This document shows, piece after piece, positions 68 through 17,500 of a DNA stretch of 64,000 nucleotides (positions are counted from its first letter, which is position 1; every line of letters begins with the position of its first letter). The DNA comes from Granulicella mallensis MP5ACTX8 (GTDB taxonomy: Bacteria > Acidobacteriota > Terriglobia > Terriglobales > Acidobacteriaceae), in assembly GCF_000178955.2 (NCBI RefSeq), contig NC_016631.1:372001-436000 (forward strand), written 5' to 3'. The position numbers and the translations under genes were made by a program. Below the pieces are notes generated by a model that worked only from the letters and a program-made list of their open reading frames with translations, did no database searches and was not told the origin of the DNA.

Positions 68-100
68 CCTTTTAAAACCCTTATGAAACCCTTATGCTCC
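68..100 (+). promoter_or_regulatory. Tandem 11-bp operator upstream of the glycosyltransferase pair
   Basis: Three 7-bp blocks, CCTTTTA (68), CCTTATG (79) and CCTTATG (90), start exactly 11 bp apart with 4-bp AT-rich or mixed spacers. This geometry is the one OmpR/PhoB-family response regulators bind. A -10-like TACGAT follows at about 107. Related arrays occur at 2765 and 4266. The regulator is not encoded in the window. Confidence 0.55.
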
Positions 101-229
101 GCGCTCTACGATTAAAAGCGTGATGATTCGTCGTGCCCAATTAGTGCCATTTAGCTGCCGATCTTTCTTGTACGGCTGCAGATCGGCGTTATCGCCGGAC
201 GACATCCCTTCGGATAATCCCAAAATATT

Positions 230-1648
230 ATGAATGATCCAGAGACGTACTTTGTAGTTCCGACACATCGGCTACGCGATGTAAGTCAAACAGTGCATGA
301 ATACGACGAGCACTTTTGGAAGAACGGTCACTCTCCACAAATGATCGTCTTCGATGACTCCACTCCCACCAACGTGGAGAAGTACTTCAGCAGCCTGGAG
401 CAACTGAAGACGAATTCCGACCTGTTCTACGTAGGTCCCCGCGAAAAAGAAGAGTTTATTGCTTATATCAACTCTCGTCTTCGCAATAAGCGGCTAGAGC
501 CGCTGGTGAAAAACCTCTTCCGGCCCAGCTACGGCGGCAATCGAAACTACACCTTGATGTACTCTCTGGGCGGCCTGATGGTCAGCTCCGACGATGACAT
601 GCGACCCTATTCCCTCATGGAAGATAGTCCCGAGTCACTGGAGAACAACGAGATCAGTCGCGGGCGTCTGCATAAGGTCGGTAAGAACGGTTATGCAAGA
701 AAGTCATTCGACATCATGTCGGCTTTCTCCGATGTACTCGGCAAGCCTGTCTCTGAGATTCCGGAAAACTATGAGCATGGCGATTTCCTGATCGACACCG
801 CGATGGACCTGGAGACCAACGTCACCAAGGGACTGATCGAAGACAATGCCACCCTCCTGCAAAGAGGACGGGTCTCGGACGATGCGGTCGTCAAAATGGC
901 GCAGACCTTCCGTTCCGGTACGAACGATATCGACGCTATCGATTTTGTCGACATGTTCCTGAACGATGAAGACCAGACCAGCCTGGACAGCCTGAACGAT
1001 CTCTACGTCCTGGTGAACTTCCGTCCGGCGGTAACGAATAAGAACTGGCGCATGGACTGCGGCGTAGCCGGCTATGACAATACGTTTGGCCTGCCGCCGT
1101 TCTTCCCGACAAGACTGCGTTTTGAGGATTACATCTATCGGCTCTGGATCCAGCAGGAAGGTATCGTAGCGGCGCATGTCGATGCGGCGCAGCACCATAC
1201 CAAGAGCAACTACATGCGGAATCCTCCGGCCTCCGAGGTGTTGAACGAAGAGATTGCCAACCTGCTCAAGAGAAAGATCAAGGACTCTCTCACCAGTGTG
1301 GATGAACTCGGCATCACCTTCGGCTACACGGGAGAGGTCACAGCACAGGATGCGGAGGAGATTCTGGAGAAGATCACCAGCCTTCATACCCGCGCGCTGC
1401 GTGCGGCAGAGACGGCAAAGAGCCAGGATCGCATCGATGCGCTGCGTCTCTTTGCGGCCAATCTCGAGAAGGCATTCTATGGCTTCGAGCCTGACTTCTT
1501 CCAGCACAACCTGCTGCGTATCGTCGACGACGCGATCGCCGTCATCAAGGCTTCCATCGAGCTTTGGCCGACGCTGGTAGAGATTTGTTACTTTCAGAAA
1601 CTGCGTAATGGCCTTCCGATGATGCATCTCGGACGGGCGGCACGATAG
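230..1648 (+). CDS. Putative GT-A fold glycosyltransferase-like protein
   Basis: A 472-residue soluble protein without signal peptide or membrane segment. The N-terminus (FVVPTHRLRD, then IVFDDSTP) resembles the nucleotide-sugar half of GT-A enzymes, and SSDDDMRP near residue 120 looks like a DXD-type metal and sugar-nucleotide motif. RFEDYIYRLW near residue 303 may correspond to the catalytic ED region. The last 150 residues are helical and unassigned. The start at ATG 230 has no clear Shine-Dalgarno sequence but is the first Met. The gene is 7 bp upstream of a GT4 glycosyltransferase and preceded by a tandem 11-bp operator. The donor and acceptor are unknown; the GT-A call rests on two motifs only. 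Confidence 0.55.
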   Translation: MNDPETYFVVPTHRLRDVSQTVHEYDEHFWKNGHSPQMIVFDDSTPTNVEKYFSSLEQLKTNSDLFYVGPREKEEFIAYINSRLRNKRLEPLVKNLFRPSYGGNRNYTLMYSLGGLMVSSDDDMRPYSLMEDSPESLENNEISRGRLHKVGKNGYARKSFDIMSAFSDVLGKPVSEIPENYEHGDFLIDTAMDLETNVTKGLIEDNATLLQRGRVSDDAVVKMAQTFRSGTNDIDAIDFVDMFLNDEDQTSLDSLNDLYVLVNFRPAVTNKNWRMDCGVAGYDNTFGLPPFFPTRLRFEDYIYRLWIQQEGIVAAHVDAAQHHTKSNYMRNPPASEVLNEEIANLLKRKIKDSLTSVDELGITFGYTGEVTAQDAEEILEKITSLHTRALRAAETAKSQDRIDALRLFAANLEKAFYGFEPDFFQHNLLRIVDDAIAVIKASIELWPTLVEICYFQKLRNGLPMMHLGRAAR

Positions 1649-1655
1649 GTCCCTT

Positions 1656-2747
1656 ATGCGAATTGCACAGGTAGCACCACTTTTTGAAAGTGTTCCCCCG
1701 GGTCTCTATGGCGGTTCGGAGCGCGTGGTCTCGTGGCTTACAGAAGAGCTGGTTCAGCTCGGCCACGAGGTCACGCTGTTTGCCAGCGGCGACTCGCAGA
1801 CCTCGGCGCATCTTGTGCCGGTATGCGAGAAGGCCCTGTGGCGTGACAAGGATTGCCGCGAGACCTTGCCGCACCACGTGCGCATGATGGAGCTTGTCTT
1901 TCGGGATCTATCCCGCTTCGACATGATTCACTTTCATAGCGACTACATTCACTTCCCGCTGGTCCGCCGCTACGGCTGTCCCTCGGTGACTACGCTGCAT
2001 GGCTTTGTCCATGCGCACGATCTGCGCGAACTGCTCGAGGAATATCACGACGTTCCGTTGGTCGCTATCTCCAATAGCCAGCAGGAGCCTGTTCCCAATG
2101 CCAACTGGCTGGGAACGGTGTATCACGGTCTTCCCGAGACGCTGCATCCGTTTCAATCGCAGCCCGGAGAATACTTTGCGTTTCTCGGCAGGACCTCTCC
2201 CGATAAAGGACTGGAGCGCGCTGTCGAGATCGCCAGGCTCTCCGGAGTTCGATTGAAGATCGCAGCGAAGATCTATGACGAAGACCGTAATTACTTTGAA
2301 CAGGTAATTCAGCCCCTGCTGCAGAAGAGTGCGTCCTTCGTGGAGTTTGTAGGCGAGATCGGCGGCGAGGCGAAGAACGAGTTTCTCGGGCGTGCCAAGG
2401 CGTTGCTCTTTCCGGTGAACTGGCCCGAGCCATTCGGCCTGGTCATGATCGAAGCCCTGGCCTGCGGTACTCCTGTCATTGCGTGGAGACGCGGTTCTGT
2501 GCCGGAGGTCATCCAGGACGGTGTGACGGGTTTCATCGTCGACAGCGTTGAGGAGGCAGTACGCTGCGTGCCCAGGCTCGCGAACATCCGCCGCGAAGGC
2601 TGTAGAGCGATGTTTGAAGCCCGCTTTCGAGCAAAGAGGATGGCGACCGACTATGTACGGATGTACGAGAAGGTTCTAGGCCGCAGGAAAGAAGGGCAAA
2701 GAGACTTAGAAGCACCAGAACTCGATCTCGTTTCCGTAATGGCTTGA
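1656..2747 (+). CDS. GT4-family glycosyltransferase
   Basis: A 363-residue GT-B glycosyltransferase. The N-terminal acceptor domain begins MRIAQVAPLFESVPPGLYGG, typical of GT4 enzymes, and continues with GHEVTLFASGDS. The C-terminal donor domain carries FLGRTSPDKGLERAVEIA and the E-x7-E type stretch PEPFGLVMIEALACGTPVIA, which contacts the nucleotide-sugar. It would transfer a sugar to a glycan or lipid acceptor at the cytoplasmic side of the membrane. It is 7 bp downstream of the other glycosyltransferase gene and should be cotranscribed with it. AGGT precedes the ATG. The exact substrate cannot be told. Confidence 0.85.
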   Translation: MRIAQVAPLFESVPPGLYGGSERVVSWLTEELVQLGHEVTLFASGDSQTSAHLVPVCEKALWRDKDCRETLPHHVRMMELVFRDLSRFDMIHFHSDYIHFPLVRRYGCPSVTTLHGFVHAHDLRELLEEYHDVPLVAISNSQQEPVPNANWLGTVYHGLPETLHPFQSQPGEYFAFLGRTSPDKGLERAVEIARLSGVRLKIAAKIYDEDRNYFEQVIQPLLQKSASFVEFVGEIGGEAKNEFLGRAKALLFPVNWPEPFGLVMIEALACGTPVIAWRRGSVPEVIQDGVTGFIVDSVEEAVRCVPRLANIRREGCRAMFEARFRAKRMATDYVRMYEKVLGRRKEGQRDLEAPELDLVSVMA

Positions 2748-2764
2748 TTTGTGACGGGGTCCAT

Positions 2765-2797
2765 CTTTATGGATTCCTTATTGATTCTTTATGTCTC
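2765..2797 (+). promoter_or_regulatory. Tandem 11-bp operator upstream of the porin gene
   Basis: CTTTATG (2765), CCTTATT (2776) and CTTTATG (2787) are three blocks spaced exactly 11 bp, with spacers GATT and GATT between them. They match the blocks at 68-100 and 4266-4287. Their position shows that the porin start must be downstream, at 2820 rather than at the GTG at 2751. A TGTATG sequence about 15 bp further on could be the -10 element. Confidence 0.6.
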
Positions 2798-2819
2798 GGG
2801 TGAGAGTGTATGGACACCC

Positions 2820-4247
2820 ATGCATCCCCGGCTTTCTGGCTTCTTATGGCTCTTCGTGTGGTGCACCGTTCGCGGAGCTTGTATGTCAGCTCAGGAACAA
2901 CCGGCTCCATTACCGGAGAGCCCTTCTTCAAAACAGGCCCAGGCTGCGCCCCAATCTTTCTGGGGACGGCTCGATCAGTTCTACATCGAAGACTGGCATG
3001 GAACGGCTCCTGAAAGTCCTGCGCCACCGCGGCGGGGACTGCCTTCACCGCTCTCGTCGCCGCCTTTCCCAAACTCGGATTGGTCCTATGGCGGTTCGCC
3101 GGTGATCGGCGAAGCGGATACGAACAGCTATCCGTTGATGACGGCCATCAACGGCGCGCAGAGCCGGACCAAGGTGTATGGATGGATTTCGCCCTCCGTC
3201 AATGCCAGTACCTCGGCGCATGGCAATGTGCCCGAGGTCGATGATGCCTATGCAAACAGGATCGAACTGAACCAGGCGGTGCTCTATGTCGAGCGCCTGC
3301 CCAACTCAGTGCAGCGAGAGCATGTGGATGTTGGCTATCACCTGACGGCCCTCTATGGGACGGACTACAGGTTCACCACCAACAAGGGCTATTTGAGCAG
3401 CCAGTGGATCGACCACAACCATCAATATGGCTTCGATCCGGTGCTTGAGTACCTCGACGTGTATGTGCCAAAGGTTGCGCTGGGAATGAACATCCGCGTA
3501 GGGCGCTACATCTCCGTCCCCGGCATCGAGGCCCAGCTTACGCCGAACAACTATATGTTCAGCCACTCCCTGCTGTATTCAGTCGATCCGTTTACGGACA
3601 CGGGAGTCCTCGCCACGGTGCAGTTGACCAGCCAATGGCTGGTGCAGGCGGGCATCACCGGCGGCCACGATATTGCACTATGGGCGAAGGGCTCGCACCC
3701 TTCGGCAACCGTTTGCGCCAGCTACACCACGGCTTCGACCAACGACAACTTTTATCTCTGCGCCAACGGCATCAACGACGGCAAGTACGCCTTCAACAAC
3801 CTGCAGCAGTACGACGGCACTTGGTACCACCGGTTCTCGAAGACCTGGCACACGGCAACGGAAGCCTATGTGATGTATCAGCGCGATGTACCGAGCGTCG
3901 GCGGATCGATTGTCCCCGAGCCCAACACGAATGGGGCGACCTGCAGGCCGGGCCTGCAAACCTGCTTCGCTCCGGAGTATGCGGTCGTGAACTATGTGAA
4001 TAAGCAGTTGTCGGCACATGATTTCATCTCCTTTCGCAGCGACTTTCTCAACGATAAGAAAGGCCAGCGGACCGGTGTAAACACGAAGTACACAGAGAAC
4101 ACGTTGTTGCTGAGCCATTGGATCGGGTCGACGATTCAGATCCGCCCGGAGATTCGATTCGACCACGCGTGGGATCGCGACGCCTACGACCGTGGAACCC
4201 GGCAGAGCCAGTTCACGGTGGCCAGTGACCTGATATTCCATTTCTGA
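2820..4247 (+). CDS. OmpL-like (BBP2) outer-membrane beta-barrel porin
   Basis: A predicted 475-residue outer-membrane protein. From the ATG at 2820 it has a signal peptide (hydrophobic FLWLFVWCTVRGACMSA), a proline-rich linker, and a barrel of alternating aromatic and polar strands ending in a terminal aromatic, DLIFHF. Around residues 215-275 the text GRYISVPGIEAQ ... SHSLLYSVDPFTDTGVLATV is the hallmark of the BBP2/OmpL-like porin family. An upstream in-frame GTG at 2751 would run through the tandem operator and is unlikely. The gene sits directly before kdp and shares its operator type, so I infer it lets potassium or small ions cross the outer membrane. The family is known; the substrate is inferred. 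Confidence 0.8.
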   Translation: MHPRLSGFLWLFVWCTVRGACMSAQEQPAPLPESPSSKQAQAAPQSFWGRLDQFYIEDWHGTAPESPAPPRRGLPSPLSSPPFPNSDWSYGGSPVIGEADTNSYPLMTAINGAQSRTKVYGWISPSVNASTSAHGNVPEVDDAYANRIELNQAVLYVERLPNSVQREHVDVGYHLTALYGTDYRFTTNKGYLSSQWIDHNHQYGFDPVLEYLDVYVPKVALGMNIRVGRYISVPGIEAQLTPNNYMFSHSLLYSVDPFTDTGVLATVQLTSQWLVQAGITGGHDIALWAKGSHPSATVCASYTTASTNDNFYLCANGINDGKYAFNNLQQYDGTWYHRFSKTWHTATEAYVMYQRDVPSVGGSIVPEPNTNGATCRPGLQTCFAPEYAVVNYVNKQLSAHDFISFRSDFLNDKKGQRTGVNTKYTENTLLLSHWIGSTIQIRPEIRFDHAWDRDAYDRGTRQSQFTVASDLIFHF

Positions 4248-4265
4248 CGTTCTCGTAAAGGGCAT

Positions 4266-4287
4266 CTTTATGCTTTCCTTATCAGCC
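4266..4287 (+). promoter_or_regulatory. Tandem 11-bp operator upstream of the kdp genes
   Basis: CTTTATG (4266) and CCTTATC (4277) are two blocks 11 bp apart, about 90 bp before the first small kdp gene. The same blocks occur before the porin and the glycosyltransferases. A KdpE-like response regulator is the natural candidate, but neither kdpD nor kdpE is in the window. Confidence 0.55.
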
Positions 4288-4377: not shown

Positions 4378-4479
4378 ATGTGGGACATCGGATGTATTGT
4401 AGCCAGCATCGCGTTTTTCGCCATTGCCGTGGCTTACACGGTCGGATGTGAACGCCTTGCCACGAAAGCAGGCAAGTAA
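4378..4479 (+). CDS. 33-residue single-TM protein of the kdp operon
   Basis: A short ORF, ATG at 4378, with AGGAG nine bases upstream. The product starts MWDIGCIVASIAFFAIAVAY and ends in a charged tail CERLATKAGK, so it is one membrane helix with a short cytoplasmic end. Its stop overlaps the kdpF start in the ATGA arrangement (shared base 4479), which implies translational coupling. A longer in-frame ORF from 4270 exists, but it would start inside the operator and has no ribosome site. I recall similar peptides (a D-I-x-x-I ... A-F-F ... C-E-R-L pattern) before kdpF in other phyla, usually unannotated. A role in stabilising or tuning the Kdp complex is inferred. Confidence 0.7.
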   Translation: MWDIGCIVASIAFFAIAVAYTVGCERLATKAGK

Positions 4480-4565
4480 TGATCGAAACGATTTTGCTTG
4501 ACCTGGTCATTCTCGGCCTTCTCATTTATCTCGTCTACGCGCTTCTACAGCCAGAAAAGTTTTAA
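4479..4565 (+). CDS. kdpF: KdpF, small subunit of the potassium-transporting ATPase
   Basis: A 28-residue hydrophobic peptide, MIETILLDLVILG followed by LLIYLVYALL and QPEKF. The length, single helix and final P-E-K-F tail are those of KdpF, which packs against KdpA and stabilises the KdpFABC pump. Its ATG overlaps the stop of the preceding 33-residue ORF and it ends 16 bp before kdpA. Confidence 0.88.
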   Translation: MIETILLDLVILGLLIYLVYALLQPEKF

Positions 4566-4581
4566 CAGGACACCTTAGAAC

Positions 4582-6369
4582 ATGACCGCCAACGGCTGGT
4601 TTCAGATACTCCTCTTCTTCGCCCTTGTACTCGTATGCGCAAAACCTGTCGGCGTGTACATGGCGCGCGTCTTCGAGCGGGAGAAGACCTTTCTCGACGT
4701 CGTTTTTCGCCCCCTTGAGCGTCTTGTTTACAAGCTGACCGGTATCGATGAGACGCGCGAGATGCGCTGGACCGAGTACTCGATTGCGATGCTTGTCTTC
4801 AGCCTTGTCACCTTGATCGCCACCTATGCGATCGAGCGCTTGCAGCATATTCTGCCGCTTAATCCGCAGCATCTTGCAGCCGTCCCGTCCGACCTGGCCT
4901 GGAATACCGCAGTCTCGTTCACAACCAACACCAACTGGCAGTCCTACGTCCCCGAGACGACGATGAGCTATCTCACCCAGATGCTCACGCTCGCGTACCA
5001 CAACTTCTTCTCGGCGGCGGTGGGCATGGCGTTGGCGGTAGCGCTTCTCCGCGGCATCTCGCGCCGTGAGTCGAAGACGCTCGGTAACTTCTGGGTCGAT
5101 ACGACGCGCGCTTCTCTCTGGGTTCTGCTGCCTGCCTGCTTCGTCTATGCGCTTCTGCTGGTCTCGCAGGGTGTGGTGCAGAACTTCCGCCCGTACGATC
5201 AGGCGAAGCTTGTGCAACCGATGACGGTAACAACGACCGGCGCGGATGGCAAGGCCACGACGCAGACAGTTACGACGCAGAGCATCGCGCAAGGGCCGGT
5301 CGCTTCTCAGGAAGCCATCAAGATGCTGGGCACCAACGGCGGCGGCTTCTTCAATACCAACAGCGCTCATCCGTTTGAGAATCCGACACCGTTCTCCAAC
5401 TTCCTGGAGATGTTTTCCATCTTCGTTATCCCCGCCGGCTTCACGGTCATGCTCGGCAAGATGACGAAGTCGCCGGCCCACGGTTGGGCGGTGTTCGCTG
5501 CCATGTCGGCCCTCTTCTTCGCGGGTGTCCTGGTTGCGTACTACGCAGAGGCCCAGCCGAATCCGCTGCTGCACTCTGCCGCAATGCACATCGACCAGCA
5601 CACCACGGCGATGCAGCCCGGCGGCAATATGGAAGGCAAAGAGGTTCGCTTCGGTATTGCGAACTCCGCGCTCTTCGCCACCGTTACGACGGATGCAAGC
5701 TGCGGCGCGGTCAATGCGATGCACGACTCCTTTATGCCGCTCGGCGGCCTGGTTCCTCTCGTCAACATCATGCTGGGTGAGGTGATCTTCGGAGGCGTTG
5801 GTGCTGGAATGTACGGCATGCTGATCTTCGTGGTGCTGGCGGTATTTATCGCGGGCCTCATGGTCGGACGCACACCCGAGTATCTCGGCAAGAAGATCGA
5901 GTCCTATGACGTGAAGATGGCGATGCTCTACACGCTCATCTTCCCGCTTTCGATCCTCGGCTTCTCCGCTGTGACGCTGATGATGCCGAGCCTTGGTCTG
6001 AGCGCGCTGGCAAACGGCGGTCCTCACGGACTTTCGGAGATCCTGTATGCCTTCACCTCGGCGACCGGTAATAACGGGTCGGCCTTTGCGGGCCTGAGCG
6101 CGAACACGCACTGGTACAACCTCTCGCTGGGGTTTGCGATGTTGATCGGCCGCTTCCTGATGGCTATTCCAGTGCTGGCTATCGCCGGCAACCTGGCGCG
6201 CAAGAAGCTTGTTCCACCTTCTCCTGGAACCTTTCCGGTGCATACGCCGCTGTTCACGATCCTGCTGATCGGCACGATCCTGATCGTTGGCGCGTTGACC
6301 TTCTTCCCGGCGCTTTCGCTTGGCCCGGTTCTCGAGCACCTTCTCCTTCACGCTGGCAAGGCCTACTAA
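4582..6369 (+). CDS. kdpA: KdpA, potassium-binding channel-like subunit of the Kdp pump
   Basis: A 595-residue polytopic inner-membrane protein that takes up and passes potassium in the KdpFABC P-type ATPase. The four pore-loop filter regions are visible: TNTNWQSY near residue 116, GTNGGGFFNTNSAHPFENPTP near 250, TTDASCGAVNAMHDSF near 370 and TSATGNNGSAFAGL near 490. Length is slightly above the E. coli protein, mainly through a loop around residues 210-230 rich in T and Q. It lies 16 bp after kdpF and 9 bp before kdpB in one operon. The long open frame on the opposite strand is a codon-bias shadow. Confidence 0.98.
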   Translation: MTANGWFQILLFFALVLVCAKPVGVYMARVFEREKTFLDVVFRPLERLVYKLTGIDETREMRWTEYSIAMLVFSLVTLIATYAIERLQHILPLNPQHLAAVPSDLAWNTAVSFTTNTNWQSYVPETTMSYLTQMLTLAYHNFFSAAVGMALAVALLRGISRRESKTLGNFWVDTTRASLWVLLPACFVYALLLVSQGVVQNFRPYDQAKLVQPMTVTTTGADGKATTQTVTTQSIAQGPVASQEAIKMLGTNGGGFFNTNSAHPFENPTPFSNFLEMFSIFVIPAGFTVMLGKMTKSPAHGWAVFAAMSALFFAGVLVAYYAEAQPNPLLHSAAMHIDQHTTAMQPGGNMEGKEVRFGIANSALFATVTTDASCGAVNAMHDSFMPLGGLVPLVNIMLGEVIFGGVGAGMYGMLIFVVLAVFIAGLMVGRTPEYLGKKIESYDVKMAMLYTLIFPLSILGFSAVTLMMPSLGLSALANGGPHGLSEILYAFTSATGNNGSAFAGLSANTHWYNLSLGFAMLIGRFLMAIPVLAIAGNLARKKLVPPSPGTFPVHTPLFTILLIGTILIVGALTFFPALSLGPVLEHLLLHAGKAY

Positions 6370-6378
6370 GGAAACACC

Positions 6379-8418
6379 ATGGCAAATACCCGTAAGCGTT
6401 CACTCTGGGATACAAAGATCGTTGGCCGCGCCCTTCACGATGCCTTCGTCAAATTGAATCCCCGCACGATGATGAAAAATCCGGTGATGTTCGTCGTTGA
6501 GATCGGCAGTGTGATCACGACGATCTACACCGTCCGCGACCTCATCCAGGCGCACCACGCACTTCGCTTCGATCTGCAGATCACTCTCTGGCTGTGGTTC
6601 ACCGTGCTCTTCGCCAACTTTGCCGAGGCGATGGCCGAAGGCCGCGGCAAGGCTCAGGCCGATGCACTGCGCAAAGCGAAGTCCGATACCATCGCGATCC
6701 GCCTGCGTGCCGATGGCACGACGGAAGAGGTCCCAAGCCTCAACCTCCGTTCGGGCGATGTCTGCCTCATCACAGCAGGCTCGATGATTCCCGGTGACGG
6801 CGAGATTATTGAGGGCGTCGCCTCCGTCGATGAGTCGGCGATTACGGGTGAGTCCGCGCCGGTTATTCGTGAGGCTGGCGGCGACCGCTCGGCTGTGACC
6901 GGTGGCACGCGCGTGTTGTCGGACGAGATCAAGGTCCGCATCACATCGAATCCTGGCGAGACGTTCCTCGATCGCATGATCGCGCTCGTAGAAGGCGCGG
7001 AGCGTCAGAAGACCCCCAACGAGATTGCGTTGAACATTCTTCTCGCAGGTCTCACGATCATCTTCCTGCTCGCAGTGGTTACGCTGCAGCCGATCGCGAT
7101 TTACTCCACGGCACCGCAGTCCGTCTTCGTTCTGATCTCCCTGCTTATCTGCCTGATCCCGACGACCATCGGCGGCCTGCTTTCGGCCATCGGTATTGCA
7201 GGCATGGATCGCCTGGTGCAGTACAACGTTCTGGCGATGTCTGGCCGTGCGGTGGAAGCTGCAGGCGACGTCAACACACTGCTGCTCGACAAGACCGGAA
7301 CCATCACGCTCGGCAACCGCCAGGCGGCTGCGTTTATCCCCGCTCCGGGCGTCAGCAAAGACCAGCTAGCCGATGCCGCGCAGTTCTCTTCGCTGCCGGA
7401 CGAGACTCCCGAAGGCCGCAGCATCGTTGTGCTCGCCAAGGAACTCTACGGCCTGCGCGGTCGCGAACTCCACGACCTGCAGGCGGAGTTCGTTCCCTTC
7501 TCCGCCACGACTCGCATGTCGGGCGTGAACATGGAAGGCCGCATCATTCGCAAGGGCTCCACGGACGCCATCGCGCGCTTCCTGCAGGAACGCGGCGGCT
7601 CGCTGCCCGACCAGGTTCGCATCGATGTCGAAACCGTGGCACGCTCCGGCGGCACGCCGCTCGTAGTCGCGGAGAACCGCCAGGCCCTCGGTGTGATTCA
7701 CTTGAAGGACATCGTCAAGGGCGGCATGAAGGAGCGCTTTGCGCAGCTTCGTGCGATGGGCATCAAGACCATCATGATCACCGGCGACAACCCGCTGACC
7801 GCGGCGGCCATCGCTCGCGAAGCTGGTGTCGACGACTTTCTTGCCGAGGCCAAGCCCAAGGACAAGATGGACCTCATCAAGCGCGAGCAGGCCGAGGGCA
7901 AGCTCGTCGCGATGACGGGCGACGGCACCAATGACGCTCCCGCGCTCGCACAGGCCGATGTAGGCGTCGCAATGAACACCGGTACGCAAGCTGCCAAGGA
8001 AGCCGGCAACATGGTGGACCTGGATTCCAATCCCACCAAGCTCATCGAGATCGTTGAGATCGGCAAGCAGCTCCTGATGACGCGCGGCGCGCTCACGACG
8101 TTCTCGATTGCCAACGACGTTGCGAAGTACTTCGCCATCATTCCGGCGATGTTTGCAGCAACGTTCCCGGTGCTCGGCGCGCTCAACATCATGCACCTGA
8201 AGACACCGGAGTCTGCGATTCTCTCCGCCGTGATCTTCAACGCGCTCATTATCGTTGGGTTGATTCCGCTGGCGCTGCGTGGCGTGAGCTACAAGGCTAT
8301 GTCGGCTGAGGCGCTGCTGCGCCGCAACCTGCTCATCTACGGCGTCGGAGGTTTGATCGCGCCGTTCCTGGGTATCAAGATCATCGACTTAATCATTACC
8401 GCCATCCATCTGGCATAA
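6379..8418 (+). CDS. kdpB: KdpB, P-type ATPase catalytic subunit
   Basis: A 679-residue P-type ATPase, the energy-coupling subunit of KdpFABC. It shows the actuator motif TGES (in [12 protein letters not shown]), the phosphorylation site [11 protein letters not shown] with the acceptor Asp, the hinge motif [16 protein letters not shown] and the KdpB-specific [16 protein letters not shown]. Transmembrane helices flank these domains. The start at 6379 has GGAAAC before it and lies 9 bp after the kdpA stop. The Ser of TGES is present; in E. coli this residue is the site of inhibitory phosphorylation. Confidence 0.98.
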
Positions 8419-8427
8419 GGGGCAGTT

Positions 8428-9009
8428 ATGCGACGCAATGTTGTCACCGCTATCCTCTACACACTTGTTACGACGATTATCTTTGGCGTAGCGTATCCTC
8501 TCCTGGTCACCGGCGCCGCGCAGCTTCTGTTCAAGGACAAGGCAAACGGCCAGCTCATCTCAGAGAATGGAACCGTTGTAGGCTCCCATCTCCTGGGTCA
8601 GTCCTTCACCACCCCGGCATACTTTCATTCGCGTCCGTCACAGGCAGGAAATGGGTATGATGCGGCCAATTCGAGCGGTTCGAACTATGCGCCGACCAGC
8701 CAAAAACTTATCGATCGCGTAAAGACGGATGTCACTGCTGCGAATACAGATCATCCGGGCACCGAGGTTCCTGTCGATCTGGTTACGGCGTCCGGCTCGG
8801 GCCTTGATCCTGACATTACACCGGCGGCAGCAGAGTACCAGGTGGCTCGTGTGGCGAAGGAGCGGCATCTCTCGGAGAGTGCTGTGCACGATCTGGTAGC
8901 GAAGCACACACAGGCCCGCCAGTTCGGCGTGTTGGGCGAGCCCCGCGTCAATGTGCTGGAGCTCAACCTGGATCTCGATCACGCGGCGCCTCAGGGAACC
9001 ATGAAGTAG
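8428..9009 (+). CDS. kdpC: KdpC, accessory subunit of the Kdp pump
   Basis: A 193-residue protein with one N-terminal transmembrane helix (TAILYTLVTTIIFGVAYPLL) and a periplasmic domain. SFTTPAYFHSRPSQAGNGYDA and SGSGLDPDITPAAAEYQVARV are diagnostic KdpC blocks. It bridges KdpA and KdpB in the pump. It starts 9 bp after kdpB with GGGG before the ATG. No kdpD or kdpE follows, so the sensor kinase and regulator must be elsewhere. Confidence 0.97.
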   Translation: MRRNVVTAILYTLVTTIIFGVAYPLLVTGAAQLLFKDKANGQLISENGTVVGSHLLGQSFTTPAYFHSRPSQAGNGYDAANSSGSNYAPTSQKLIDRVKTDVTAANTDHPGTEVPVDLVTASGSGLDPDITPAAAEYQVARVAKERHLSESAVHDLVAKHTQARQFGVLGEPRVNVLELNLDLDHAAPQGTMK

Positions 9010-9830: not shown

Positions 9831-11573
9831 CTAGTGCCGCCATTGATAGACAACGGTCTGGTGTATCACGCCGTTGTTCAGGGGCGACTCCGTGAAGGTC
9901 TCGGCATCGAGATCCTGGAACGTGCTGCTCAGGCTGGCCATGTTCCTGGAGAAGAAGGGTGGGGTATCACCACCGCCTGACTGCGCCGAGCTGCCGGAGC
10001 CATCCAGCAGATGGGTCAGCCGCACAAAGCCCTCGCGCTCGGAGCGATGATCGAAGCCCGCGATGAGGGTCGCCTTCTTTGGCGCAGAAGCTGCATGATG
10101 CGAGGCTTCGAGGAGAAGCAGCAAGGTAGCTTCATCAGAGGCAACCACGCAGACATTGCCCTGAATCGCCAGCACGAGACCGTGTATTCCACTCAGGTCT
10201 ACCCAGCTCACATTGTCATGGTGATGTTCCTGCCAGGCGAGCCCAGCCTTACCGATGGTAAGTCGCGGTGCCAGCGCGGCGCTGAGAGCCTGTTGCCATG
10301 CAGCCTGGTTCCATCCTGCCGAGGAGGTGAGGACCATCGCCGTATGAATGGGGGAGAAGACTGTCTCGCTGCCCAGGGTCTTTGGCTGGCCCGTCGAAGA
10401 AAAGACGAGCATCGCCTCAGGATGTGCGGCGGCGAGCAGGTCTTGCAATTGCGAAAGAGAAGCTGCACGAGGTTGCACGACGACCGATGTCTCGTCGATG
10501 CGTTCTTCAAAGTTCGACGTATCTCCAGCGATAGGGGTGGAGAGATCGGCTCCCGGCGCGATGTGTGTGTCGCGATAGGCGCTGGTATTGCGCGAGAGCA
10601 GCTTGTCTTCAAACTGATGAAGGATCGAAGCTGAGGTGGGCTGACCCTGTGCGCGGTAGACGCCGATATTCTGCGGAAGATATCCCAGCACGGGTGCGAG
10701 GTCTGCGCTGGTTGTTTCTTTATCGGGGTTTGTAGCGAGCAGTATGCGTTCTTCGCGAAAGCTTTCGGGCGTGAGGTAGAGATCGCTCAGCGCTGAGCTG
10801 TATTGCTTGAGTTCCGTGATGTTCTGCTGTATCCAATAGCTGCGGAAGTAGGGCGAGGGCACGATCTTCGTCATGTTCAGAGCCATGCGCAGATCGCCGG
10901 GTTGTTCCTTCACGGCTGCGACAGCTTCCGCATACCAGCGTTCGTGCTGCAATGTCGCGCCCACGGGTTGCTGCATCAACTGCAACGCGTTGGCAATCAG
11001 ATCCTCCCGTGTGGCAAGCAGCAGATAATCGCCATGCACGGCGAAGGCTACGGTCTGCGCGGGATCGCCCTTGGTGCGGACGAAAAAGGAGGAGTCTCCT
11101 GCTTTGCGCTCCTCAAACTTGTCGCGCATTTGCAGCAGAGGGGTCTTGGCTGCTTCTCCATGGGGCATGCGCGTGATGTAGAGGAACTCCAGGTTGCCGA
11201 TGTCATACCAGGCAAAGAGACTTTGGCCACCGGCGACCTGTTGCAGGAATTGCGCGTCAGGCGGAAACCCCGCAGTGGCAGCGAACTGGTCCTGCGCTTC
11301 ACCCAGGCGGGAGAACAGGCGTGAGTGCGAAAAGCTCGTGTAATTGTCGCTCTTGAGCCAATGCTGCTCCTCTTGCGAGCTCGACCAGGATTTGAGCAGG
11401 GTCTTGAAGTCGGGAGACTCGATCGACAGAAGAGCACCCTGCGGGGCAAAGGAAGCCAGGGACAGATTGTCGGGGGGAGACGATTGAAGTGCGGTGTAGA
11501 CCGCGGCTCCGCAGGCTCCCAGGACTCCGAGGAGCAACATGGCTGCGAGTGCAAAATAGAATCGCTTCATCAT
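9831..11573 (-). CDS. Exported or membrane-anchored protein of unknown function (last gene of the envelope operon)
   Basis: A 580-residue protein with an N-terminal hydrophobic segment (FYFALAAMLLLGVLGACG); LGAC could be a lipobox, so it may be a lipoprotein or a single-TM protein facing the periplasm. The remainder has no motif I recognise: alternating helices and strands, with repeated hydrophobic strands such as LFAWYDIGNLEFLYI and YLLLATREDLIANAL, suggesting two related halves. The start overlaps the stop of the giant TPR gene by 4 bp (ATGA), so its translation is coupled. It is the final gene of a four-gene set of exported proteins. Function is unknown. Confidence 0.7.
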   Translation of the reverse strand: MMKRFYFALAAMLLLGVLGACGAAVYTALQSSPPDNLSLASFAPQGALLSIESPDFKTLLKSWSSSQEEQHWLKSDNYTSFSHSRLFSRLGEAQDQFAATAGFPPDAQFLQQVAGGQSLFAWYDIGNLEFLYITRMPHGEAAKTPLLQMRDKFEERKAGDSSFFVRTKGDPAQTVAFAVHGDYLLLATREDLIANALQLMQQPVGATLQHERWYAEAVAAVKEQPGDLRMALNMTKIVPSPYFRSYWIQQNITELKQYSSALSDLYLTPESFREERILLATNPDKETTSADLAPVLGYLPQNIGVYRAQGQPTSASILHQFEDKLLSRNTSAYRDTHIAPGADLSTPIAGDTSNFEERIDETSVVVQPRAASLSQLQDLLAAAHPEAMLVFSSTGQPKTLGSETVFSPIHTAMVLTSSAGWNQAAWQQALSAALAPRLTIGKAGLAWQEHHHDNVSWVDLSGIHGLVLAIQGNVCVVASDEATLLLLLEASHHAASAPKKATLIAGFDHRSEREGFVRLTHLLDGSGSSAQSGGGDTPPFFSRNMASLSSTFQDLDAETFTESPLNNGVIHQTVVYQWRH

Positions 11574-14500
11574 GGGTGCACCTTCGTTGCGCTGACCGTG
11601 AGTCGCGGCCTTACGAGCACAGCCTGTTGAGTGGAGGTCTGAATGACTGGCCGACGAGTGGCATTCTCTTGTTTTACGTTCAGGCGTTCTTGTAGCGAAC
11701 TGATGCGGCTCTCAATCCTGGACTGCTGCACCTTGTCCTCGGTGAGTTGAGCGGCGGTCTGCAGATCTTCGATCGCCTGTTGCTCTTCGGAGAGATGCTC
11801 TTCCATCGTCGCCAGTGCGAGAAGGAAGTCGCGCTTGTCCTGCGGTTGGGTGAGAAGAGTCGCAGCCTGCGTTCCCACTGCGCTTGAATCTTCCGTTGTG
11901 GGCTCTTCGGAATTCACCTCTGTACTTTCATCCGACGGCGCTGTCCGTAGAGAAGGGTTCTCCGAGAGGAGCGGCGCAACGGCAGTGTTGGCCTTCTCGT
12001 ATTGGTTCGCGGCAACTTCGGCGGTGAAGATATCGAGCCGCAACTGATCGAGCAGAGAAGTCGGTGCATCCATGATGGCTGCACGCAGCAGCGTGCCGCG
12101 CTGTGCCATGGGCAGGGCCGCGGCCGCGCTCATGTGTGCATAGAGAAAGTAGGGCTGGTCTGCCTGTGGTGTGCCTGGCGTTGCGTTCGCCAGTTGTGTC
12201 AGCTCCGCGCTGCTGAAGCTGCGTGTTCCGGGGATGGCACGAAGCGCCTCAGCGGCCTTGGCTCTGTCGTCGTAAGGAGAGTTGTCGCTTGTCGCCACTG
12301 CCTTCAGTGTTGCTTCGGCTGCCGCATCCTGCTTGCTCGCAAACTGTGCTTCGCCAAGCCGCCGTCGATAGTCGAAGTCCCAGGGATTGCCGTTTGCTAG
12401 CTTCGTCAGCAAAGGCAGTGCCTCAGCCACATGGCCTGTGCGCATCAACAAAGCGGCGGCGGTGTCGAGGTTTTCGTACAGGTCTCCCTGCAGCGTGAGC
12501 CTGTGTAGCAGATCGAGAGCGCCGGGCACATCGTTGGTTGCGAGCCGTGCCTCCGCCAGTGCGAGATAATCCGGCGCCGCAAGCTCTTGCAGTGCGGTCT
12601 TCTGCTGAAAGACATACTCGAGCAGCAGGCGGCTGTTGGCGCTGTCCTGTTTCAGGCGAAGCTGATTCGCCACACTGGAGAGCGTGGCCAGCGCAGGTGC
12701 ATGCGATGGATCGTTCTGGTAGTCCGCAATCCATTGCGGGAGCCGCGACTGGCGTGCCGCCAGCAGCAGGGTGATCGTTTGCATCTCCTCGTTTTGTCGC
12801 TGGGCAGCAGGAATGCTGTCGAGCAGGCGCTGCGCCTCTGTGATCTGTCCTTGTTGCAGGAGCCACTTGAGGTACTTGAGTTGGATGGAGGTGAGCACGC
12901 TTTGTGTGCCGTCGTCCTCAGTGCCCTTCGACTTTGCGGCCGCGGCTTGCGCTTCGGCCTGAGCCAGTGCCAGCTCGTGGCGATAGATACCGCCGAACTG
13001 CGCGCGAGGGAACCAGGTCTCATCCGTCAGACTGGAAAGAATTGCGCGCTGGTCGGTCGTGTCCGCCGCCAGTGCCAGCACCCAATCGGTGGCTTCCGTG
13101 GCGCTCACTTTTTCCAATGCAACATAAGCCGCGTGCAATAGCTCGGTCGAGCGATAGCTTCCGTTCTTTCGGATGTAGGGCGCGAGGACACCGTCCATTC
13201 CTGGCTTTAGCTGTGGTCCGATCTGATACTCGCGCGCATCGTTTGCGATGCTGGTGAAGTTTGTCCAGAAGCTCTCCGGCACAGATTGTTCGTCCACCAT
13301 GGCGCGCAGCTTCGCGAGCGCCTGCTTCCACTCGGCGAGGGCTTCGTCGTGATGGCTTTCCATCCACAGGATCTCCGCCATCGCCCGGTTGGGTTCAGGG
13401 TCTTCCGGGGCAAGCTCTTCCACATGGCGATACTCGGCGATGGCAGCATCGTACTTGTGCGCATCGACATAGGCTTGTGCGAGTGCGATGTAGCTAATGC
13501 TGCCCTGCGGCATGAATTCAAGTCCGGCGGGCAGATACTCTTCCGTGTCGGCGTCGGGCTTAGCCGCGAGTGTGCGCCACACGCCATAGCGCATGGCGTA
13601 GTAGAACCACGAATCGCCGGTGATCTGTTTGGTTGCACCCGGCTGCGACTTCAGGCGCTCGCCGATCGTTCCATCGGCGAGCACCGTCTGGAAAGCTGCG
13701 TCGGTGCGCGGTGTGGTATCGCCGAAGTACAGGCCCAGCAACGCGTTCATGGCTGTGGGCCATACCGGCGGATTGGCAGCAGTGCGCGCAGCAATCACCT
13801 GGTAGGCCAAAGCCTTGGAGCCATTTGTCACGATATAGCTTGCTGCGGCATCGGCATAGTTGCCCTTTGCGGCGGCCAATCGAACCAGTGCGGCAGGGTT
13901 GTGCAGCAACAGCACTTCGAATAGCCGTTGCTGCTGTTGCTGCCCCTGGTGACTGACGACCAGCTTGCGCAGGTCGCGTGCTTCCGCCTCGAAGTTTCCT
14001 GCATCACGCCAGGCGCCTGCGGCCATCTCGAGTACGGTCGGCTGTTCTTCGCTCCTAAAGGTTGCGGCATAGGCATCCAGCGTCTGCGCGCGCGTGAGGT
14101 TGTCCATGCGCTGCGCCTCCAGTGTGTCGAAGAGGTTAAGCTGTGCCAGGGCAAGATCTTTGTCTCCGCCGAGCAGCACATCGCGACGCCATACAGCCTC
14201 ACGGTCCTTCAATCCGGCTGATTGAGCTGCAGGAATCCAGACCTCGACGACTTCTTTCAGTGGACGATTCGAACGCTCCGTGTCCAGTAGGCGAGCATAG
14301 GCCAGCTGCTCTTCCGGAGTGTAGTAGTCTCCTACCGTTGCACTCAACACCCGTACCGCGCGGCTGAAGGTGTTCTGCGCAAACTGCCTGCGTTGTTCTA
14401 CCTGCTGCTTACGCCAGTCCGCGTTGGTTACGGAAGCGATGCCCTTTTCTTCCACCTGCTTGACGATGAGTGCCGGTGATGAGGGAGACGTCTCCGAGGC

Positions 14501-17500
14501 CGCAAGGGCACTCTTCAGCAGGGCCAGTGCTTCCCGAGCCTGTCGTTGACGACCGAGCAGACCTGCGTATTGCACAGCGCCGTCTGCGTTCTGGGAACTG
14601 GTGAGCAGGTCATCGCCGGCGAGTTTCACACCCTCGTCAGCGAACTTGCGCGCTTCGGTCAGCATATCCCAGCCAGCCAGTTGGGTGGCCACGCGGAAGT
14701 TATTGGCCGCAGATGGGGGATGGCCTTCGATCCATGCGGTCTGCAGCGCCTTCACGGCCAGATCGGCGCGTCCCTGGCGGGCGCGGGCGAGTGCGGCCTT
14801 CTCCATCCACTGCGGGTCTTTGTAGGTCAGCAGGTAGAGCCTGTCGTAGTCCGCACAGGCGGCCTCGTACGACTGTTGATGCTCTTCGATATCGACGCGC
14901 GCGATATAGAGGTCTGGCCGATCTTTGCGGATCGCAATCGCCTTGGAGTAGGCAGCTAGCGCACCGTCGTAGTCCTCGAAGAGCACGTCCACGCGGCCGA
15001 GGTCGATGGCAAAACGCGAGTCGCGCGGCGAGTCGGCGACCGCCTTGTTGAGGAAGGCGACGAGCTGCGGTTCGCGGCTGTGCAGCCGCGCATAGGAGGC
15101 CGCGTTCTGCAGGATGTTCGTGTCCTCGGGGAAGGCACTGATTAGTGCGATGTGCTGGTCGAGAGCGCCGCTATAGTCTTTGAGGTCGGTCAGGGCCAGG
15201 ATCATGCCCTGGCGCACGAGCGCGATCTTGTCGCGCTTATCCAGTGCACTCAATTGCGCATTCAGCGGAGCGCTCTTGAGGGAGGCAAGGGTGGCCGCGT
15301 AGAAGTCGCGCAGCCCTGTTGCATCGTGCGCGAGTGCGTAGCTGTCTGCCGTCAGCGCCAGATACTGCGCGTTGTAGGGATTGTTGGCGAGCAATGGCTT
15401 CAGTAAAGTCCGCGCGCCTACGAAGTCGCCGCTCTGGTTCGACTTGGCGATAGCCTCCAGCGTGAAGTTGTGCGCCAGTGTGGGATTAGCCTCGTGCGAG
15501 GCCTGGACCAGGGTGGCCACGGCGCGCGGCTGCTGCTTGTTGTTCCAGTAGAAGTCGGTCGTCGCGCGAACCACTCCCAGGATCTTCGCGTTGTCCTTGT
15601 AGACGGCCTCGATGAGGCGCTGTGCATCCGCGATATCGTTCTGGTCCTCATAGGCGCGCACCAGCTGATACTGCAGCTCGATGCGCTGCACGGGATCAAC
15701 AGCCAGCGCGATCTCGCGTTGCAGGGCCGCCTGGTAGGCCTGCGGAAGATGGCTGTTCTGGCTAAGCTCCACGAGCTGCGCCGCATCGTCCACGTTGGCC
15801 GCTCTCTGAATAGCGGCCTGTACGAGTGCGTCGATGCTGGAGGTCTGTTGCCGGGTTTGCAGGATATCGATGCGCAGCTTCAACGCTTCGAGCGTGGGAT
15901 GTTGTGTGGCGCTGCGCTCTGTCTCCTGGTCGACGAGATCTGCTGTCTCGGGGCGCGTGGCCAGCGTCAGCAGCCGCCCGCGTGCGCTGAAGCCCGACTC
16001 GTCCGCTGACGATTGATCGGTGTTCTGTGCTGTTGCCGAGCGCACGTATTCCGCAATCGCTCGCGAAAAGTCGCGCTTGTTCTCGCAGATCGCGCCGGCT
16101 TCGTAGCCATAGAGCGCTGGATTGTTGAACTGTTTGCGTGCGGCCTCGATCTGCGCGATGGCCTCGTCGAACTGGAAGTAATCCCAGAAGACGGTCGCGG
16201 ATTGCAGGTACCCGTCGGAAATGCCGGGATGCACGGTACTCATCCGCTTCCAGTAGGGCGCGGCCTGCGCGAGCTGATGGTCTACGGGGAGATTCAGGCT
16301 GGCCGAGGTGCTGTCGGCGTAGATATCGCCGATGGTTGCAAGCCTGTCGAGGTTTGTGGGATCTGCCTCCGAGAGATGCTTCTCGATGGCGACAGCACGC
16401 TCAATCTGCGCGGGATCATAGTAAGCCAGCGAACGGAAGATGCTGGCCGCATCTTCGCCGACCGAGGCGTCGGCAGGATACGCCTGGGCCAGCTCCTCTA
16501 ACAGCGGAGCACTCTGCTCGAAGTGCGACTGCCAAAGCTGTAACTGCGCCAGCTCGTGTGTTGCTGCGGGATTTTGCTGCTGCGCCGCAGCCGCAGGCAC
16601 AAGCGCTTGCAGTGCGGTCATCTCCGCATTGAGCTTGTTCGTTCGGCTGAGGTAGTCGAAGAACTCCGCCTGCAGTTCGGGCGACTCCTGCCAATGTTCG
16701 CGGATGAGCTGTTCCCATGCGGCAGAATCGGCGGTGTCTTTTGAGGTGTATGCGGTCAGTAGATTGCGAGTGAAGGTCAGATCGTGAGGGAAGCGCTTGT
16801 GCGCATACAGGTTGAGTTGCAGATAGGCCTGGGGCCAGTTACTCGTGACGTTGCCGAAGTATTGTTCAAGCTCCGTGCCTTGAAAGATATCGACGACCTT
16901 GCGCGTAAGCGTGTCGAAGTCCTGCTGGCGTTTCTGGCGCAGGTAGAAGCGCGCGAGCTTGTCATAGAAGGTCGTGTCGTTGAAACGCGCCAGCGCCTGC
17001 TGATAGACCGCTTCCTGCTCTGCTGCGAGGTTGTTCTGTTGCAGAAAGTCCGCGAGCTTTGCGTAGAGCAGAGGATCGTTCGGATTGCGGTCAAGCTCGT
17101 GTCGCAGGACAGCAAGGGCTGTGGGTAGTTGGTTGGCCGTTGTGAGCCGTCCGAGATAGCGGTCAAGAATCTGCCGATAGGCTTCTGCCGTGGCGGTAGT
17201 CGCAGGCGCAGCTACAGGCATAGCGAGCGATGGCTTCAGTACAGCGCTCGCCTGGGCGGTAGCTGCGGGGACTGGCGCGCTGTCTGTCGTGTCACTGTCG
17301 GGCGCTGGAGCTTCGGGCGCAGGTACTGCCACTGCTCCTGCTGCCGTTAGCGGCATGCCTTGAAGGCTGCCTGCAAGCTCGGTGAGCAGATTGTCGTACA
17401 GCGCGAACTCCGACTTCGTGTCGTTCTGCCGGGCATCGGCGTCGGCTACTTCTAACGCAACTTCGAGCCGTTCGCTGGCGTGGGGAAAGTCCGCGAGAAA

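Follow-up and report, generated by a model that had tools for sequence, protein, structure and literature searches.

Tandem 11-bp repeats as putative KdpE-type operators of potassium, porin and nucleotide-sugar enzyme genes in Granulicella mallensis

The stretch of DNA analyzed here, called the window, covers bases 372,001-436,000 (64,000 nucleotides) of the single-contig genome of Granulicella mallensis MP5ACTX8 (6,237,577 bases, coded G000 in our genome set), a species of the Acidobacteriaceae (Acidobacteriota, Terriglobia). The window carries the kdp genes of a potassium pump together with three arrays of short direct repeats, which we discuss as putative operators of a KdpE-type response regulator. 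The order at the locus is kdpD-N, array 1, GTa, GTb, array 2, a BBP2 porin gene, array 3, a 33-codon open reading frame (ORF) and kdpF-kdpA-kdpB-kdpC, all from array 1 onward lying on the plus strand of the window. Array 1 (68..96) stands before GTa (230..1648), which encodes a putative GT-A-like nucleotide-sugar enzyme of 472 residues, and GTb (1656..2747) encodes a GT4-type glycosyltransferase of 363 residues (PF00534/PF13439). Array 2 (2765..2793) is followed by the gene of the BBP2 (OmpL-like) outer-membrane porin (2820..4247; PF07642, E 5.4e-29). The porin ORF is open from 2751, before the box, and the ATG at 2820, with a signal-peptide-like end read from the sequence, is the likely start; with this start, array 2 precedes the gene. 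Array 3 (4266..4283) lies before kdpFABC, that is, before the 33-codon, membrane-protein-like ORF with a GCERL-like motif (4378..4479), kdpF (4479..4565; TIGR02115, above cut-off), kdpA (4582..6369; PF03814), kdpB (6379..8418), assigned as the P-type ATPase subunit from its operon position and P-type ATPase domains, and kdpC (8428..9009; PF02669). The KdpB of the window is 84% identical to the second KdpB of the genome, itself above the TIGR01497 cut-off.

The three arrays are made of eight heptamers, all on the plus strand, and every step within an array is exactly 11 bp. Array 1 reads CCTTTTA (68), CCTTATG (79) and CCTTATG (90), array 2 reads CTTTATG (2765), CCTTATT (2776) and CTTTATG (2787), and array 3 reads CTTTATG (4266) and CCTTATC (4277). 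The block at 68 is degenerate, with five of seven bases matching. These blocks and their spacing had been pointed out in an earlier note on the window, and both positions and sequences held when checked. When both strands of the 64 kb are searched for CYTTATG-N4-CYTTATG with at most two mismatches, five matches are found, all within the arrays, compared with a mean of 0.47 and a largest value of 2 in 100 dinucleotide shuffles of the window. The wider dimer CYTTAYG-N4-CYTTAYG gives the same five matches, a number reached by 4 of 100 shuffles, and no further dimer with at least 12 of 14 bases occurs anywhere in the window on either strand. A single match with up to two mismatches proves nothing, since such dimers are not in genome-wide excess. 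On the sequence level, the evidence for the arrays is their clustering, strand, promoter position and conservation, rather than the number of matches.

Conservation was followed in 61 genomes, own genome counted, among which KdpA was found in 42 and KdpD in 44. Forty kdp stretches were fetched, and 37 loci from 36 relatives could be oriented on the KdpA gene and were tested, a pass being a directional dimer CYTTAYG-N4-CYTTAYG at 12 or more of 14 bases. Upstream of kdp, the 11-bp period gives 43 forward matches and a single reverse one. At control periods, forward matches number 2-7 for periods 9-10 and 12-21 (3, 2, 2 and 3 at periods 9, 10, 12 and 13), 6 at period 8 and 9 at period 7. Period 22 gives 24, as expected from arrays of three heptamers. 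A match is carried by 26 of the 37 loci, whereas 60 shuffles yield 1.45 on average and 5 at most. The narrower CYTTATG of the earlier note, which had not been tuned on the relatives, gives 19 forward matches and one reverse at period 11 (13 of 37 loci) and none at periods 9, 10 and 12 in the same 37 loci. Of the 13 loci from beyond the genus, which represent other genera, families and orders, the wider motif is present in 12 and the narrower one in eight. The earlier note had named absence of the motif, or a frequency no higher than elsewhere, as grounds against its reading; in the relatives' kdp loci the motif is in fact about 34 times denser in the kdp upstream regions (43 forward matches in 68.8 kb) than in the remainder of those loci (18 matches in 487 kb, both strands). 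Three of these 18 fall, by coordinate, in the GTa arrays of two relatives, G009 (Granulicella sp. S156) and G022, whose GTa is 99% identical to that of the window.

The individual arrays are also found in close relatives. Array 1 is conserved upstream of the relatives' GTa, array 3 has similar counterparts in G022 and G009, and a counterpart of array 2 precedes the porin gene of G022; no box was found before the kdp-locus porin of G009. Where a porin precedes kdp in the relatives' loci, an array is often present before the porin. A BBP2 porin also lies beside kdpBC in a Bacteriovoracaceae genome (L275, 1684-3039), and the kdp-porin link reaches beyond Acidobacteria. A tiny ORF like that of the window at 4378..4479 was seen in 20 of the 37 kdp loci of relatives.

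The GTa protein has no Pfam match up to E 1 and no NCBIfam match up to 0.001. It is present in 5 of the 61 genomes, and a full-length match is found in 3 of 396 genomes of the phylum, own genome included in both counts; in the relatives G001 and G014, GTa and kdp are on different contigs. Sixty GTa loci from named genomes were compared, a sample recovered via two conserved peptides in which many cyanobacterial loci are near kin. Linkage was scored when a kdpA, kdpB, kdpC or kdpD-N gene at 35% identity or more was found in the flanks (up to 4 kb), and loci were grouped by record title. With this definition, kdp genes flank GTa in 38 of the 60 loci: 4 of 11 acidobacterial ones and 34 of 49 others, made up of 29 of 38 cyanobacterial loci and 5 of the remaining 11 (Verrucomicrobia, Bacteriovoracaceae, Myxococcales, Acidisoma, Sphingomonas). 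A looser cut gives 39 linked loci, one being a 24%-identical ATPase. GTa and kdp are on the same strand in 31 of the 34 linked non-acidobacterial loci. The gene order is kdpA-kdpB-kdpC-GTa-kdpD-N at locus L281 and kdpA-kdpB-kdpC-GTa-GTb-AMY-kdpD-N at L239 and L292, where AMY denotes a glycoside hydrolase carrying GDE_N_bis and MGH1-like domains. Among the 60 loci, AMY and GTb are confined to the acidobacterial and planctomycete ones. In other phyla, GTa is 59-73% identical to that of the window and its spread is patchy, which suggests horizontal transfer. Side by side with these counts, a Nostocales locus (L250, 1825-3540) carries upstream of GTa a KdpA-like protein about 40% identical to the KdpA of the window (PF03814, E 5.2e-213), as do L260, L261, L268 and L269, and a kdpC match lies further upstream of the KdpA-like gene in L260, L261 and L268.

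The box itself passes at about -100 to -160 upstream of GTa in 8 of the 11 acidobacterial loci, the control periods 9, 10, 12, 13 and 14 giving 0, 0, 2, 0 and 3 of 11. Seven of these 11 loci have no kdp gene within flanks that extend to at most 4 kb; five of the seven pass and two reach 11 of 14 bases, one of the latter (L287) with a broken GTa reading. None of the 49 loci from other groups passes. Hence, GTa seems to come under Kdp control by two routes, either by standing among kdp genes or by having its own box. This placement by two routes is the strongest argument that GTa would belong to the potassium-limitation response.

A structural model of GTa was obtained from a 49-row alignment (the window's GTa and those of 48 of the 60 loci, broken or partial readings and some near-duplicates being left out). 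Its predicted local distance difference test score (pLDDT) is 66.7, a moderate value; five near-identical rows gave only 33. The modeled fold resembles MtdL and mannosyl-3-phosphoglycerate synthase, at 7-17% sequence identity, and no other family stood clear of the common GT-A background in the fold comparison (VIA-align). Against PDB sequences the best match had an E of 0.047, to an unrelated protein, and no related sequence was found there. MtdL is a metal-dependent mutase with GDP-fucose as substrate. The earlier note had proposed that the GTa-GTb pair makes a cell-surface glycan and so takes part in surface remodeling. This is not supported: since GTa shows kdp linkage in several phyla and has a modeled fold like that of GDP-sugar enzymes, among them a synthase of an osmolyte precursor, what it makes may not be located on the surface. 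Tentatively, and with serious reservations, we suggest that GTa could found a family of nucleotide-sugar enzymes of GT-A-like type, so far undescribed, and that this family would belong permanently to the response of several phyla to potassium limitation. Such an enzyme might make a solute or glycan that contains sugar and takes the place of potassium, such as an osmolyte of the glyceryl-glycoside kind; GTb and the MGH1-like glycoside hydrolase would be possible partners in Acidobacteria and Planctomycetes. Kdp control would come from kdp adjacency in cyanobacteria, Verrucomicrobia and some Acidobacteria, and from a KdpE-type box of its own in Granulicella and Edaphobacter. Among the papers listed by literature searches, which mostly do not cover subscription journals, none deals with this regulon or with a glycosyltransferase linked to kdp.

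Elsewhere in the G. mallensis genome, other genes carry the box. Only two perfect CYTTAYG dimers exist in the genome, one in array 1 and the other before a gene for a KimA homolog of 620 residues (2,470,377-2,472,236), which matches PDB entry 6s3k with an E of 8.7e-119 over residues 5-618; this kimA box is 63 bases upstream of the matched part. Arrays of three with two mismatches precede an orphan kdpB (kdpB2) at 5,020,522 and a second BBP2 porin gene at 5,645,563, the latter box being kept in the orthologs of G022 and G009. The three genes are named as putative targets because of position, array form and orthologs, and the number of matches plays no part in this; kdpB2 is the weakest of them. 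The orphan kdpB belongs to a second kdp-like cluster (5,016,066-5,020,522), in which it is convergent with a DUF4118 histidine kinase gene and a KdpE-like regulator gene and has a box of its own; neither kdpA nor kdpC has a match next to it. In G009, contig C4 has perfect boxes (263,459 and 270,813/272,988), which stand before two ORFs of 443 and 1049 residues that look efflux-like by eye and to either side of a third porin-like gene.

Promoter geometry gives further indications. In PhoB-type promoters, 11-bp direct repeats replace the -35 region and stand at a fixed step of about 10 nucleotides from the -10 element. In the set of 41 promoters, the pattern TAnnnT is found exactly 10 nucleotides past the box in 11, including 6 of 8 GTa and 3 of 7 kimA promoters, and at every other offset in 0-2 of the 41. 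In the window, the -10-like hexamer TACGAT (107..112, plus strand) is at this distance from the last heptamer of array 1. The GTa promoters thus share with PhoB-type promoters a fixed step of about 10 nucleotides to the -10 element, and the hexamer behind the GTa boxes places the box upstream of the transcript there.

Taken as a whole, these features make it quite probable that the arrays serve a KdpE-type response regulator (OmpR/PhoB family) as operators, and this regulator would activate its targets on potassium limitation. One regulator monomer would read one CYTTAYG heptamer, and two or three monomers, arranged head to tail with one on each turn of the helix, would occupy the DNA immediately upstream of the -10 element. 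When potassium is scarce, the bound regulator would recruit RNA polymerase. Its targets would comprise the Kdp pump, BBP2 porins, the KimA-type importer, the second kdpB, and the GT-A-like enzyme with its partner glycosyltransferase. Binding by a regulator, activation under potassium limitation, the identity of that regulator and the product of GTa are what we infer here from sequence.

Which regulator would bind is a question raised by the locus itself. Of the 40 kdp stretches, 35 contain a response-regulator gene, which within the genus mostly follows kdpD-N directly. Two of the misses concern a stretch of 4.3 kb and a stretch whose kdpABC genes lie on another contig; the others are the kdp loci of G000, G009 and G022. 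In these three genomes, GTa-GTb sit downstream of kdpD-N, at the place where most relatives of the genus have the regulator gene. None of the 29 winged-helix domain matches of the G. mallensis genome is near the kdp genes of the window. As no kdpE stands beside kdp, "KdpE-like" must mean a paralog encoded elsewhere in the genome. A candidate is found in a kinase-regulator pair at 1,320,871-1,323,020, whose regulator gene occupies 1,322,328-1,323,020. In a tree containing 14 of the 29 domain matches (long proteins and one wrong-frame reading were left out), this regulator and its paralog at 5,047,848 fall into one clade (100/95) with kdp-adjacent regulators from other families and orders and one from the genus. 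Its best NCBIfam model is KdpE, at 202.1 bits and thus below the cut-off of 325, and the kdp-adjacent regulator of a relative (L072) is below the cut-off as well, with 185 bits. Near-identical or 92%-identical counterparts exist in G022 and G009. The candidate operon carries a box in all four genomes compared (12 of 14 bases in G000 and G022, 14 of 14 in G009, 12 of 14 twice in G001), which is what autoregulation would lead one to expect. On these sequence grounds, the best candidate for the binder is the regulator at 1,322,328. The regulator of the second kdp-like cluster, at 5,017,172-5,017,999 beside the DUF4118 kinase and the orphan kdpB, also scores below the KdpE cut-off; it was set aside as the kdpE since G009 and G022 have no close relative of it, so that it cannot explain the boxes there, and it remains another candidate.

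Several genes and features around the locus complete the picture. Just outside the window, a KdpD-C-like histidine kinase (DUF4118, HisKA, HATPase) is encoded on the minus strand at 369,036-370,484 of the genome and, divergent from it, KdpD-N (PF02702) on the plus strand at 370,608-371,750. Here and at most loci of the genus, KdpD is thus represented by two proteins, KdpD-N and a divergently encoded DUF4118 kinase. No box was found in the stretch that separates the two genes. A cobalamin riboswitch match (Rfam; genome 368,856-368,986) adjoins the kinase gene. Further into the window, a very long ORF of 2474 residues (11570-18994, minus strand) lies beside ORFs of 580 and 806 residues on the same strand.

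A number of observations weigh against operators of a KdpE-type regulator and have to be set beside those given above. At the place of the invariant first T of the E. coli-type site, four of the eight heptamers have C, which lowers the confidence in this explanation slightly, and a further one, at 68, is without the A. The wider pattern, with T replaced by Y, was adopted after the relatives had been seen, many loci are close kin and their counts non-independent, and 11 of the 37 kdp regions have no dimer at 12 or more of 14 bases. As mentioned, the kdp loci of G000, G009 and G022 contain no regulator gene. Concerning the promoters, only two of the 26 of kdp have TAnnnT at the fixed step, a number not above that at one other offset, and the hexamer is absent behind arrays 2 and 3 of the window; when four or more of six matches to TATAAT are required, the fixed step stands out with 10 of 41, and two other offsets reach 6 of 41. 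In a porin-upstream comparison of 24 rows, eight porin loci away from the kdp promoter have no box at 11 or more bases. The kimA box passes in 6 of 17 ortholog loci (reverse strand 1) and in 1 of 13 more distant homologs (reverse 1), and the kdpB2 and second-porin sites are of the class with up to two mismatches. Genome-wide, dimers with at most one mismatch number 17, as compared to 19 for the reversed pattern in G000 (20 and 22 in G022, 16 and 15 in G009, 13 and 21 in G001), and those with at most two mismatches are fewer than in the reversed control, 52 vs. 70. Nomination of targets from the motif alone was dropped for these reasons. Finally, surroundings were read for 21 of the 47 matches outside the kdp locus. 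Sites set aside were those at 3,771,405 and 2,304,521 (within ORFs), 639,397 (wrong orientation), 5,761,322 (within an ORF as its start is listed), and 5,649,341/5,649,385 and 6,062,148, which have outer-membrane-barrel genes nearby.

These points bear on three other explanations. Envelope regulators usually have porins and glycosyltransferases among their targets, so that the arrays could belong to another regulator of the OmpR/PhoB family, of PhoB, osmotic or envelope type, with kdp as just one target. This would agree with the 29 winged-helix domain matches in the genome, with the C at the first core position, which the E. coli KdpE site does not have, and with direct repeats being described as general for the family in PMC3264566. 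We regard it as unlikely, albeit the most serious of the alternatives, since the recurrent targets are potassium genes (kdp, KimA and, more weakly, kdpB) and the box stands before the operon of a KdpE-like regulator in four of four genomes. Chance T-rich repeats in promoter DNA, bound by no regulator, would fit the lack of genome-wide excess, but are very improbable given the controls for period, strand, position and shuffling, the conservation across orders of the class and the absence of the box from all 49 non-acidobacterial GTa loci. Riboswitches of kimA genes exist. Least probable of all is that the repeats belong to an RNA element within the transcript, for instance a cyclic di-AMP (c-di-AMP) riboswitch: although PMC6488665 places the Bacillus thuringiensis kdpFABC operon under one, Rfam at gathering scores found no RNA at the boxes of seven loci (arrays 1-3, kimA, kdpB2, second porin), and the -10-like hexamer behind the GTa boxes puts the box upstream of the transcript.

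Operators of a KdpE-type regulator being the preferred explanation, the regulatory core of the earlier reading is probably right. Its proposal of one KdpE-like regulator for kdp, porin and glycosyltransferase pair gains from the directional 11-bp operators shared in relatives and loses from the missing kdpE at the locus, while the role for phosphate that it had considered is not supported. The seeming regulon spans an inner-membrane pump, a further importer, porins of the outer membrane and an uncharacterized enzyme family. If this is true, potassium scavenging in Gram-negative soil bacteria would extend to the outer membrane and to a sugar product. The motif would then offer a means to map the potassium regulon of these Acidobacteriota, and GTa would be a concrete enzyme, from an undescribed family, tied to kdp in several phyla.

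Comparison with known systems places the arrays close to, and yet apart from, established operators. The Pho box heptamer is CTGTCAT, different from that of the arrays, and the recurrent targets here are potassium genes. Mannosyl-3-phosphoglycerate synthase may resemble GTa in overall fold, judged from a model of moderate confidence, and GTa has no sequence-family match to it. In Staphylococcus aureus, KdpDE affects a cap (capsule) gene, according to the review PMC3610689; this is a precedent for an effect of KdpDE on a polysaccharide locus, which differs in genes and host and involves no kdp-linked gene. For the E. coli KdpE operator, PMC3264566 gives half-sites TTTATA and TTTACA with 5 bp between them and an 11-bp period, a T/C change without effect on binding, and two leading T of the half-site that do not vary among the aligned genera. 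The arrays share with it the direct repeats, the 11-bp period, the T/C wobble and the place before the kdp structural genes. The core is [CT]TTA[TC] here vs. TTTA[TC] in E. coli: the E. coli-type TTTAT is found in three of the eight heptamers (2765, 2787, 4266), CTTAT in four (79, 90, 2776, 4277), and neither at 68. Unlike in E. coli, the heptamer is CYTTAYG, C is allowed at the E. coli T, three or more copies are often present, and the operator is repeated before other genes. Judged from its sequence, the site is KdpE-like with a shifted preference, non-identical to that of E. coli. E. coli KdpE has been described with essentially one target locus, the direct targets given in PMC7657598 being kdpABC together with adeP, uxaA and uxaC, whereas in G. 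mallensis this type of operator seems to mark a regulon. Thus, the arrays seem to combine a known operator build and a KdpE-like sequence with a target set wider than in the model organism.

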